Origin: Bacteroidota bacterium
GTDB taxonomy: Bacteria; Bacteroidota; Bacteroidia; J057; RFSG01
Direction: 5' to 3'
NCBI GenBank assembly: GCA_947459115.1
Contig: CANHCC010000003.1
Location: 1 to 38,084 of the forward strand
Length of the DNA: 38,084 bases
Shown here in pieces: positions 22 through 33,711 of the stretch. Position numbers and translations under genes: made by a program. The notes under the pieces are model-generated. The model was given only the letters and a program-made list of their open reading frames with translations. It had not been told where the DNA came from and ran no database searches. Within the stretch, counting starts at the first letter, position 1. Each line of letters starts with the position of its first letter.

Positions 22-153
22 GCTTGGTGCAAGTATCCGCTTGGTGCAAGCCCCTGCTTGGTGCAAGCCCCTGCTTGGTGCAAGCCCCTGCTTGGTGCAA
101 GCCCCTGCTTGGTGCAAGCCCCTGCTTGGTGCAAGCATCCGCTTGGTGCAAGC
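22..153. repeat. Tandem palindromic array A1: 8 copies of GCTTGGTGCAAG(C)nnnn, exact 17-bp period
   Basis: Units start at 22, 39, 56, 73, 90, 107, 124, 141. The core GCTTG-GTG-CAAGC is an interrupted palindrome (5-bp stem, 3-nt loop). Spacers are mostly CCCT, or ATCC. Confidence 0.97.
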
Positions 154-223
154 GATGCATTTGTCCTTGCGTTCCCCATACCCCATGTCGTATGTTTGCC
201 AGAAACACTAAAACTAAATACTT

Positions 224-937
224 ATGAAAAAAACAGTTGAATTCAAACCCGGGCTTTTTTACCACGAAGTTTTAAAAGCCAATTCTGATGGAATCCTATT
301 CAGGGATGCAGAAGACCGAAATTTCTTTCTCAACAAAATCCGAGCCTTCATCCTGCCCTGCTGTGAGGTCTGGGCTTATGTGATCTTGGGAAATCATGTC
401 CATTTGTTACTTAGGCCGCATCCCAAAGAAATCTTGGCCCGGCTTCCGTTGCAATTACACTTGCTGGATTTAGATTTGAGCATCGCAAATCTAAAAGAAT
501 ACCTGCAAAAGGATTTTAACTTAAGGCCACCTTACGCACTGAAGCCTTTTCAAGGCTCGATTCACTTCCAGATTCGGTATTGCATCAGAAGTATTAAACA
601 TTCCTACGACCAGTATTCCAAAAGAAAATACGAAACCAAAGGAGTGTTATGGTCCAGAGATAAGTTCACCAAAGAACTACCAACCGTTGAAGACATTGCT
701 CGAACGGTTCTGTATATTCATAAAAATCCGGTGTTTCATGGAATGGTGGATCAGCCAGAGGATTGGCAGCATTCCTCTTACCATGAAATCTTGGGAGGAG
801 AAAATCGAATGGTCATGCGGGAAGATGTTTTGAGTTTATTTAGAAATGAAGAGACCTTTCAAAGAGAACACTTTGCGACGGCTTCTGAGTTTGGGAGAAA
901 ACCCTCTCAGCAAAAAGTAGCCTTGCTAAATCGGTAA
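224..937 (+). CDS. Y1/HUH transposase-like protein, REP-associated tyrosine transposase (RAYT)-type (RAYT1)
   Basis: HUH motif in 'YVILGNHVHLLLRPHP', 'LYIHKNPVFHGMV...DWQHSSYHEI' typical of Y1_Tnp/RAYT proteins; flanked on both sides by the same palindromic repeat. Confidence 0.88.
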   Translation: MKKTVEFKPGLFYHEVLKANSDGILFRDAEDRNFFLNKIRAFILPCCEVWAYVILGNHVHLLLRPHPKEILARLPLQLHLLDLDLSIANLKEYLQKDFNLRPPYALKPFQGSIHFQIRYCIRSIKHSYDQYSKRKYETKGVLWSRDKFTKELPTVEDIARTVLYIHKNPVFHGMVDQPEDWQHSSYHEILGGENRMVMREDVLSLFRNEETFQREHFATASEFGRKPSQQKVALLNR

Positions 938-950
938 TTAGAAAGTTACC

Positions 951-980
951 GCTTGGTGCAAGCCTCCGCTTGGTGCAAGC
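951..980. repeat. Array A2: two copies of GCTTGGTGCAAGC, 17-bp period
   Basis: Copies at 951-963 and 968-980, directly downstream of RAYT1; same core as array A1. Confidence 0.95.
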
Positions 981-5114: not shown

Positions 5115-5783
5115 ATGGCAGAAAAATATCAAAATAAATATCGCATCCCATCTATTCGCCTTCAAAACTGGGATTACCGCAGGGCAGGGGGTTACTTCAT
5201 CACGATCTGCACCAAGGGAAGACAACATTATTTTGGCCAAATACGAAATAAAAAAATGCATCTATCCCAGGTGGGTGTTATTGCAGATCTACTCTGGCAT
5301 GAAATTAAAAACCATTCCAAAAATGTAATCCTTGGGGAATTTGTGGTGATGCCAGATCACATTCATGGGATATTGATATTGACGGGGGATGGCGGCGATG
5401 CCAGGGATGGCAGGGATGCCGGGGATGCCGGGGATGCCGGCCCTGCACAGACAGGGCATGCGGTACAGACAGGGCATGCCCTGTCTCTTCCGCATGCCCC
5501 ATCCCCATCGCAATCGCAATCCCCATCCCCATCCCAATCCCAATCCCCACCCCCTATCGGCCGACAACGCTACCAAAACATCGGGAAAAATTCCGTTTCC
5601 TCTATTATCGGCAGCTACAAATCTGCGGTAACGAAACACGCCAATCGGCTGGGTTTTGAATTCGGATGGCAACCCCTGTTTTACGAAAGCATAGCCCGAG
5701 ACCCGGAATCGCTTGAACGAATTTCTCGATACATTCGAAACAACCCCATAAAATGGAAAGAAGACAATTTTTATAAAAAATAA
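5115..5783 (+). CDS. Y1/HUH transposase-like protein (RAYT2) with low-complexity in-frame insertion
   Basis: 'YFITICTKGRQHYFG', HUH motif 'VMPDHIHGILIL', and C-terminal 'SSIIGSYKSAVTKHAN...FGWQPLFYESIARDPESLERISRYIRNNPIKW' typical of the Y1_Tnp family. Confidence 0.92.
   Translation: MAEKYQNKYRIPSIRLQNWDYRRAGGYFITICTKGRQHYFGQIRNKKMHLSQVGVIADLLWHEIKNHSKNVILGEFVVMPDHIHGILILTGDGGDARDGRDAGDAGDAGPAQTGHAVQTGHALSLPHAPSPSQSQSPSPSQSQSPPPIGRQRYQNIGKNSVSSIIGSYKSAVTKHANRLGFEFGWQPLFYESIARDPESLERISRYIRNNPIKWKEDNFYKK
5386..5556. repeat. Composite repeat block inside the RAYT2 CDS: (GGGATGCCG)n, GACAGGGCATGC copies, C-rich hexamers
   Basis: Six 9-bp units at 5386-5439; GACAGGGCATGC at 5450-5461; perfect palindrome at 5468-5485; CCCATC/CCCAAT hexamers to about 5556. 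Confidence 0.93.
5468..5485. repeat. Perfect 18-bp palindrome GACAGGGCATGCCCTGTC (copy 1, within CDS)
   Basis: Sequence equals its own reverse complement; part of a 26-nt string repeated at about 5996-6020. Confidence 0.97.
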
Positions 5784-5851
5784 TGAAAATATCAGGGGAT
5801 AATATTTAAAACATGGCCAATCCGGATGATGGCGCCATGATGCATTATGCG

Positions 5852-5995
5852 GGATCATCACGCATAAACGGATCATCCTGCATGCACGGATTATCATGCA
5901 TGCCTGGATAATCATGCATGCTTGCATAATCATGCATGCCTGGATAATCACGCATGCCTGGATAATCATGCATGCCTGGATAATCATGCATGCCC
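5852..5995. repeat. Tandem array B: about 8 units of GGATAATCATGCATGCCT, 18-bp period
   Basis: Units start at 5852, 5870, 5888, 5906, 5924, 5942, 5960, 5978, degenerating toward the 5' end. Core CATGCATG is palindromic. Confidence 0.95.
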
Positions 5996-6000
5996 GTACA

Positions 6001-6018
6001 GACAGGGCATGCCCTGTC
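6001..6018. repeat. Perfect 18-bp palindrome GACAGGGCATGCCCTGTC (copy 2, intergenic)
   Basis: Identical to 5468-5485, within shared string GTACAGACAGGGCATGCCCTGTCTCT. Confidence 0.97.
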
Positions 6019-6111
6019 TCTACCCGCATATCCCACATATCTGGCATATCCCCAATCCCCATACCCATACCCAACATTTTCCCATAAATTTGCATCACAT
6101 TCAAAATCCGC

Positions 6112-7275
6112 ATGAACCTATCCCACATCCTCTTCGAACTGGGCGAAGACCGCGAAAATTATAAAAATGCCGTAAGCCCTCCGGTTTTCCAATCTTCAAA
6201 TTTCTGCTTCAACTCCGTTGAAGAAATGCGATCCAAACTCGCAGAGGAGATGGACTACCCCTTCTACACGCGTGGGCATAATCCAACGGTAGCGATTCTT
6301 CGTAAGAAACTGGCAGCACTGGAAGGAACAGAAGATGCCCTCGTATTTGGTAGTGGTAGCGCTGCGGTTGCGGCTGCCGTTCTTTCTCAGGTGAAATCCG
6401 GGGATCATATTGTTTCCGTCAAAAATCCCTACTCCTGGACAAACAAACTGTTCAATCGTTACCTCAAAAGATTTGGCGTGGAAACGACTTTCGTGGATGG
6501 CACAGACGCTGAAAATTATCGAAAAGCCATACGCCCTGAAACCAAAATCTTATACCTGGAAAGTCCAAATTCTTTCTCCTTCGAACTACAGGATATTGAG
6601 GCAGTGGTAAAAATTGCCCAAACCCATAATTGCGTCACCATCCTGGATAACTCCTACTCTACCCCACTCCACCAAAACGCTTCTGACATGGGCGTAGATA
6701 TAATTGTTCACTCGGCTACTAAGTATTTAAATGGTCATAGCGATGTCGTAGCAGGCTTATTATGTTGTAATCGAAAAATCGCAGAACATATTTTCGAAAC
6801 GGAATATATGAATACGGGGGGCATCCTATCGCCGCATGATGCCTGGCTCATGATACGGGGCTTGCGCACCTTGCCTTTACGTTTAAAACAAAGTACAGCG
6901 TCCACACATTGGTTACTGGAACAATTAGAAAAGCATCCAAAAGTCGAACGAATTCATTATCCTTTACATCCGAGTCACCCCCAATTTAAATTAGCACAGA
7001 AACAAATGACAGGAGCCGGAGGATTATTTTCGTTGACCCTCAAGGTCCATACACCAGAAGAAATTGATAAATTTTGTAATGCACTCCAACATTTTCTGAT
7101 TGCCTGTTCCTGGGGAGGCCATGAATCATTAGTATTTCCCGTAGCAGGACTATGTGATTCGGCTAATTATAGCACCTCACCACACCCTTGGAATATGGTA
7201 AGATTTTATATTGGCCTCGAAGAAAAAGAATATCTACTGCACGATATTGAACAAGCGCTCACACAATTAAAATAA
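6112..7275 (+). CDS. PLP-dependent trans-sulfuration enzyme (cystathionine gamma-synthase/beta-lyase family)
   Basis: 'VHSATKYLNGHSDVVAG' PLP-lysine motif, 'YTRGHNPTVAILRKKLAALEGTEDALVFGSGSAA'. Confidence 0.93.
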   Translation: MNLSHILFELGEDRENYKNAVSPPVFQSSNFCFNSVEEMRSKLAEEMDYPFYTRGHNPTVAILRKKLAALEGTEDALVFGSGSAAVAAAVLSQVKSGDHIVSVKNPYSWTNKLFNRYLKRFGVETTFVDGTDAENYRKAIRPETKILYLESPNSFSFELQDIEAVVKIAQTHNCVTILDNSYSTPLHQNASDMGVDIIVHSATKYLNGHSDVVAGLLCCNRKIAEHIFETEYMNTGGILSPHDAWLMIRGLRTLPLRLKQSTASTHWLLEQLEKHPKVERIHYPLHPSHPQFKLAQKQMTGAGGLFSLTLKVHTPEEIDKFCNALQHFLIACSWGGHESLVFPVAGLCDSANYSTSPHPWNMVRFYIGLEEKEYLLHDIEQALTQLK

Positions 7276-27758: not shown

Positions 27759-27929
27759 GGTAATTTACCGGAAGGGGGGGGGTAAGTAACTTACCGGAAG
27801 GGGGGGTAAGTAACTTACCGGAAGGGGGGTAAGTAACTTACCGAAGGGGGGTAAGTAACTTACCAAGGGGGGTAAGTAACTTACTAGGGGGGGTAAGTAA
27901 CTTACCAAGGGGGGGTAAGTAACTTACCC
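27759..27929. repeat. Tandem palindromic array C: 7 copies of GGTAAG-TAA-CTTACC with poly-G spacers, plus one variant GGTAATTTACC
   Basis: TAAGTAACTTA starts at 27783, 27807, 27830, 27852, 27873, 27894, 27916 (spacing 24, 23, 22, 21, 21, 22); G tracts of 6-9 nt. Confidence 0.97.
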
Positions 27930-33613: not shown

Positions 33614-33711
33614 GCTTGGTGCAAGCCCCCGCTTGGTGCAAGCCTCTGCTTGGTGCAAGCCTCTGCTTGGTGCAAGCACCCGCTTGGTGCAAGCACCCGC
33701 TTGGTGCAAGC
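33614..33711. repeat. Array A3: 6 copies of GCTTGGTGCAAGCnnnn, exact 17-bp period
   Basis: Units start at 33614, 33631, 33648, 33665, 33682, 33699; same core as the arrays around RAYT1. Confidence 0.97.

Follow-up and report, generated by a model that had tools for sequence, protein, structure and literature searches.

A RAYT-like HUH protein between arrays of a short REP-like hairpin in a Bacteroidota genome

RAYT (TnpA-REP) proteins combine an HUH motif with a single tyrosine in the motif Y-I-x-x-N-P, and in the canonical systems (subclasses 2.2, 2.4, 2.5, 2.7 and 2.8) the cognate repeats carry GT[AG]G at their 5′ foot. The principle of a TnpA-REP with atypical repeats in Bacteroidetes is already published: the text of Quentin et al. 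(2018, PMC6006769) describes subclass 2.6, corresponding to Bertels group 5, and calls its repeats “atypical secondary structures”. The insertion of REPs into genes has been reported as well (in the text of PMC6006769, and in PMC3733652). Here, a locus is described which quite probably represents a REPtron of this general kind, that is, a domesticated HUH/Y1 transposase (RAYT1) situated between arrays of a REP-like hairpin for which it would be specific.

The window, meaning the whole stretch of 38,084 nt that was analysed, is the entire contig C3 of a Bacteroidota genome and begins 21 bp ahead of an array of eight head-to-tail units (positions 22–153, + strand; unit starts at 22, 39, 56, 73, 90, 107, 124 and 141, a step of 17 bp). 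Downstream of it lies the gene for RAYT1 (224–937, + strand), a 237-residue HUH protein of the RAYT/TnpA-REP type with HVH at residues 58–60 and a putative catalytic tyrosine, Tyr164, in the motif YIHKNP; 14 bp beyond its stop codon follow two exact hairpin units (951–980, + strand; starts at 951 and 968), spaced 17 bp and oriented like the upstream array. Each hairpin, GCTTG-GTG-CAAGC, is 13 nt long, with a 5-bp stem and a GTG loop, and is accompanied by a 4-nt pyrimidine-rich foot, or spacer. Nine of the ten units flanking RAYT1 contain GCTTGGTGCAAGC exactly, the exception being the first one (GCTTGGTGCAAGT, one mismatch, ending ...AAGT). The initial annotation had recorded eight plus two copies of a 17-bp palindrome, all in exact 17-bp register, around a Y1/HUH RAYT-like ORF. 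The ORF and both counts stand, as does the register inside each array; it does not run from one array to the other (810 bp apart), the first unit is mismatched, and the palindrome proper measures 13 bp, 17 bp being the period with the 4-nt spacer included.

Absent from that record is a third array (33614–33711, + strand), six exact units of the same repeat family between a nuoG-like gene and atpG, which are convergent; no RAYT lies near it within the window. At up to one mismatch, GCTTGGTGCAAGC is matched 16 times in the window, where 0.03 matches are expected by chance, and no Rfam family matches the window. A CRISPR array was rejected, as the spacers are only 4 nt long and restricted to pyrimidines, and groES and groEL are among the gene neighbours in the window. 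Short tandem repeats with periods of 9, 6, 18 and 24 bp occur at 5385–5559 and 5852–5994, where they overlap or lie close to the ORFs at 5115–5783 (+) and 5289–6128 (−).

The motifs of RAYT1, GNHVH and YIHKNP, are conserved in an alignment of 55 sequences, and so far as motifs go the protein has both the HUH and the single tyrosine expected of a RAYT. Against the NCBIfam model for REP-associated tyrosine transposases (NF047646) it scores 48.9 bits (E=6e-13) and does not reach the cutoff of 80; since two relatives of known type (loci L042 and L043) score about 62 bits and fall below it too, the cutoff misses the branch to which RAYT1 belongs. The match to Pfam Y1_Tnp is sub-threshold. An AlphaFold2 model built from the 55 sequences has a pLDDT of 91.4, and a Foldseek search with it returned as top match 4er8, the E. 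coli RAYT in complex with a REP hairpin (E=4.9e-8, TM-score 0.66 by target length); the best matches after it include the ISDra2, IS200 and IS608 transposases. The C-terminal half of RAYT1 aligns with 4er8 such that Tyr164 falls over Y115, which we take to be the catalytic residue of the latter. The four residues which, according to the text of PMC6006769, read the GTAG guide in the E. coli protein (Q95, E100, H101 and R104) correspond to S144, T149, K150 and P153 in RAYT1, with W94 kept; the difference appears in keeping with the missing GTAG. Judged by its HUH and tyrosine motifs, the predicted Y1/RAYT fold and the dispersed palindromes at its flanks, RAYT1 is a RAYT/TnpA-REP in the broad sense. 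An IS200/IS605 insertion sequence was rejected: the closest paralogues in the assembly are only 58%, 57% and 44% identical, and there is no near-identical second copy.

Genome-wide statements rest on searches of the assembly (2.86 Mb, 280 contigs) together with sampled stretches. The repeat occurs in 351 exact copies and in 381 with at most one mismatch, the reversed pattern in none; an order-5 Markov model predicts 0.046 exact copies, so that the genome-wide comparison proposed in the initial annotation comes out in its favour. In 59 other genomes the repeat was found at most once each. Contigs C3, C4, C27 and C59 end in or beside arrays of the repeat, for which reason the assembly probably underestimates both copy number and array length. 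At 36 sampled sites the copies form either arrays of a single orientation, almost always with 17-bp spacing, or inverted doublets (6 of the 36), all of the polarity “−+” and, but for one whose spacer has 3 nt, with the layout 13-4-13; no “+−” doublet was encountered among these sites. Besides the predominating tandem arrays there are thus inverted doublets which, like those of REPINs and BIMEs, keep one polarity, and the earlier contrast of tandem with inverted repeats needs some correction.

The hairpin is perfect in 97 of 99 units that follow another unit. The 4-nt spacers of the 99 in-array units come in 17 forms, nearly all of them NYCY, and inverted doublets mostly have YYCC-like feet that face outward; from this we infer that foot and hairpin together make up the repeat unit. 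A restriction-site or HIP1-like reading of the repeat (GCTTGNNNCAAGC) was ruled out, given a loop that hardly varies (GTG/CAC in 62 of 63).

In the same genome, four RAYTs have the family motifs: RAYT1 on C3 and one each on C59, C53 and C80; in a tree they group by themselves, at the end of a long branch. The gene on C59 (58% identity to RAYT1; truncated by the contig end ahead of the Tyr motif) follows an array of about eight 17-bp units that include GCTTA-CCC-TAAGC, a hairpin on the plan of that at RAYT1 (5-bp stem, 3-nt loop) with different letters, of which 48 copies with at most one mismatch are found genome-wide versus 4 for the control. Upstream of the C53 gene (57% identity) are three 17-bp units containing GAGGCGTCGCTC, a hairpin with few copies beyond its own array. 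GCTTGGTGCAAGC is absent from the RAYT loci of both C59 and C53. The C80 gene (44% identity) has no tandem hairpin array and is surrounded by 29-nt inverted repeats (L034:1382–1410 and 2193–2221, 90% complementary). Three of the four RAYTs thus have a 17-bp array of their own, each different. The arrays on C59 and C53 are both preceded by the same end of an rpsB gene (99% identity over 122 bp; gene order rplM-rpsI-rpsB on C59), the two RAYT genes (L033 and L032, respectively) are 77% identical where they overlap, and over the final ~87 bp of C59 the two contigs are identical. The likeliest explanation is that the assembly is metagenome-like and that the two contigs represent a single locus in two strains, with the array and most of the RAYT differing jointly; less likely alternatives are duplication of the locus and an effect of the assembly. 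That these rpsB-locus alleles carry different 17-bp arrays of their own supports the initial proposal of a repeat/transposase pair in a Bacteroidetes genome.

Eight further ORFs in the genome, of ~250 codons, are homologous to RAYT1 at 20% identity (on C7, C12, C16, C31, C42, C51, C69 and C103; loci L035–L040 and L208–L213). In the six of the eight that were aligned, both HUH histidines are lost (HVH being KLL, KIF or QMF) and so is the tyrosine (YIHKNP being EIQNTP or similar). None of the eight has an array beside it and none was found in 59 other genomes. Paralogues lacking the catalytic residues offer an example of a RAYT domesticated for a role unlike that of a nuclease. The genome also encodes a T9SS-like protein, in keeping with Bacteroidota, as are the distant RAYT relatives.

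Members of the RAYT1 clade were found neither in 22 genomes of the order nor in 395 of the class, nor in GTDB r220; a GTDB scan with N-terminal peptide patterns gave no match, and one with central motifs retrieved distant RAYTs only. Among the genomes covered, clade and repeat are restricted to this lineage. At 52 distant RAYT loci, a repeated flanking hairpin (by a uniform rule, the same hairpin on either side, or three or more occurrences of it) is present in 31, as compared with 24 of 340 control genes taken from the same loci (Fisher P=1.3e-17); for Bacteroidota the numbers are 16 of 27 versus 7 of 111 (P=5e-9). The detector was a second version, the first having been too strict, and was not tuned on the outcome; the P value is optimistic, as a second test was made and close relatives among the loci, for example Nostocales RAYTs, were counted separately. 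In six of the loci (L042, L092, L110, L114, L116 and L122), 18-bp tandem doublets lie on either side of the RAYT. RAYT homologues elsewhere thus have repeated hairpins of their own at their flanks much more frequently than controls do, and the reading of the locus given in the initial annotation is, on the whole, supported.

The repeat is also found inside genes. At least 19 single exact copies of the 13-mer lie within ORFs of at least 238 aa, taken as putative genes; this is a lower bound, as the filter drops some, and compares with 0.046 exact copies expected in the whole genome. They are located on C4, C8, C9, C10, C23, C34, C35, C45, C47, C77, C86, C89, C95, C118, C119, C161 and C170 (loci L131, L134, L135, L137, L146, L153, L160, L168, L177 and L188–L198), and one gene in C89 and one in C95 have two copies each. 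An in-frame insertion was rejected for FolP and MurA, whose alignments with PDB homologues show no gap at the site of the 13-mer; GDP-mannose dehydratase and PhoH, which also contain it, presumably have their native length, as judged by eye. Copies of this kind look like replacement by, or convergence to, the exact motif, not insertion; RAYT-mediated insertion and models of mobile REPs apparently do not explain them, and they might reflect a drive resembling that of uptake sequences, or short patches copied from a template.

On another view, the 13-mer would be mainly a host signal, for example DNA-uptake-like or serving chromosome organisation or repair, kept exact by selection or biased recombination, with RAYT1 as a mere neighbour or exploiter. 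Exact motifs within conserved genes such as FolP and MurA would fit it, and so would the scarcity of near matches: only ~30 copies have one mismatch, when chance would give ~39 for each of the 351 exact ones. Inverted pairs a few bases past convergent stop codons would fit it too, similar pairs being found in neisserial uptake sequences. Against it, uptake sequences are not known to lie in 17-bp tandem arrays, as the majority of the copies do here; moreover, the hairpin changes from one RAYT allele to another with the period unaltered, and RAYT loci in general have repeated hairpins nearby, which together make a pure coincidence of neighbours unlikely. A limited literature search also found no report of uptake sequences in Bacteroidetes. 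We consider a mainly host-owned signal improbable.

A separate proposal concerns how copies arrive in genes: 13-mers would enter them by length-neutral replacement, and at rpsB the array would have been swapped between strains together with the N-terminal part of the RAYT. The route might be short-patch templated repair by single strands that RAYT released, or uptake-biased recombination. This is put forward tentatively, as something we hold to be rather unlikely; if true, the REP would behave as a genome-wide, exactness-driven signal and have a second mode of spread. In any case, the exact copies raise the question of how a REP-like sequence can enter genes without insertion.

It is also conceivable, and in our estimation very unlikely, that RAYT1 merely happens to lie between two of many arrays which were spread by slippage or by another enzyme. 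Tandem arrays are indeed common (16 sites in the 373 kb sampled), from which ~0.27 doubly flanked genes would be expected if placement were independent, and the third array of the window has no RAYT beside it. In addition, the window has a second, unrelated palindromic array, GGTAAGT-A-ACTTACC (27777–27928; ~22-bp period, G-rich spacers); this palindrome (GGTAAGTAACTTACC) has about 250 sites in the genome, including variants (GGTAAGCNGCTTACC) that retain pairing, and a RAYT for it was looked for in the genome and not found, so that a palindrome evidently need not have a RAYT beside it to be abundant. Yet among 272 sampled ORFs the only one with the RAYT1 repeat within 150 bp on both sides is RAYT1 itself, two more RAYT alleles have 17-bp arrays, and the association extends to RAYT loci elsewhere (P about 1e-17). 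The least probable reading is that the repeats serve regulation, as transcription terminators or as hairpins stabilising mRNA, and multiplied by ordinary tandem duplication. Although 14 of the 36 sampled sites lie between convergent genes and the RNA fold predicted for an inverted doublet is strong (−33 kcal/mol), a single unit is weak (−3.1 kcal/mol), duplication would have copied the spacer and neighbouring spacers differ where the hairpins do not, and the association with RAYTs is left unaccounted for.

For the REPtron, then, the following course can be envisaged. GCTTG-GTG-CAAGC would be extruded where the DNA is single-stranded, the replication fork being the probable place, and bound by RAYT1 as a folded single strand; the protein would read the foot NYCY immediately 5′ of the hairpin, where canonical REPs have their GTAG guide, cleave beside the unit by means of Tyr164 and re-join units elsewhere. 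In this way, units would be seeded for the most part between genes, be it singly, in head-to-tail arrays or as inverted doublets. Repeat and enzyme would diversify jointly, as the rpsB-locus alleles with other hairpins and an unchanged 17-bp period suggest. Several points speak against a REPtron: the hairpin is short, its single unit having about −3 kcal/mol in a 5-bp stem; the C80 paralogue is without an array; the C53 hairpin is scarce outside its own array; the GGTAAGTAACTTACC palindrome is abundant with no RAYT found for it; and there are the exact copies within ORFs. The sister hairpins differ in defined bases of stem and loop with the 17-nt unit kept, so that the residues reading the hairpin and those reading the foot can be tested directly, in a compact system lacking GTAG; the RAYT biochemistry found in the literature used GTAG-type repeats of proteobacteria.

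Compared with known systems, the RAYT1 repeat has no GT[AG]G at its foot, and in view of NYCY in nearly all of the 99 in-array units it is not filed as a canonical GTAG-type REP system. With E. coli TnpA-REP and its REPs and BIMEs (4er8), RAYT1 shares the fold, the positions of HUH and tyrosine, flanking by the repeat, its dispersal and the inverted doublets; it differs in the guide-reading region, and where the E. coli REP has a GTAG guide and a long bulged stem, the repeat here has no GTAG, a perfect 5-bp stem and a mainly tandem arrangement. A perfect 5-bp stem with a small loop and a tetranucleotide nearby is also found in the Marinomonas REPtron Mb of group 3 (Corneloup et al. 2021, PMC8266576), which differs by a GTAG two bases from the stem, a 4-nt loop and a group 3 protein. 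REPINs (Bertels and Rainey 2011, PMC3116915) are likewise inverted REP doublets with a constant polarity, able to fold as a single long hairpin, whereas doublets are a minority here, with a spacer of 3–4 nt; the tandem REPs of P. fluorescens are 72–112 bp apart (PMC3116915), as opposed to a period of 17 bp. The RAYT on C80, with inverted repeats and no hairpin array, resembles the TIRtrons (TIRYT, PMC3733652), in contrast to RAYT1 and the rpsB-locus alleles, which carry hairpin arrays instead of terminal inverted repeats. As to signals not tied to a transposase, the DNA uptake sequences of neisseriae and Pasteurellaceae are short exact motifs with copies in genes and inverted pairs after convergent genes, and the enrichment of an exact motif inside genes is shared by the RAYT1 13-mer; unlike them, the latter is mostly in tandem arrays, self-palindromic and linked to a RAYT. 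The nearest described group, as far as sequence comparison with its published description goes, is TnpA-REP subclass 2.6: on the text of PMC6006769, its members too are HUH-Y proteins of Bacteroidota with NHVH, flanking hairpins without GTAG that have copies elsewhere in the genome, and a non-conserved guide-reading region. That text gives for subclass 2.6 a median length of 179 aa and the motifs NH[LIV]H, WQ and YIH[QN]NP; RAYT1 agrees in NHVH and in its atypical hairpins, and departs in WS, YIHKNP and its 237 aa. Set against the same text, without its repeat table, RAYT1 further differs by its private deep clade and its dense 17-bp tandem arrays, and it is these two, together with the inactive-looking paralogues, the exact copies in genes and a possible swap of array and RAYT, that are new here.
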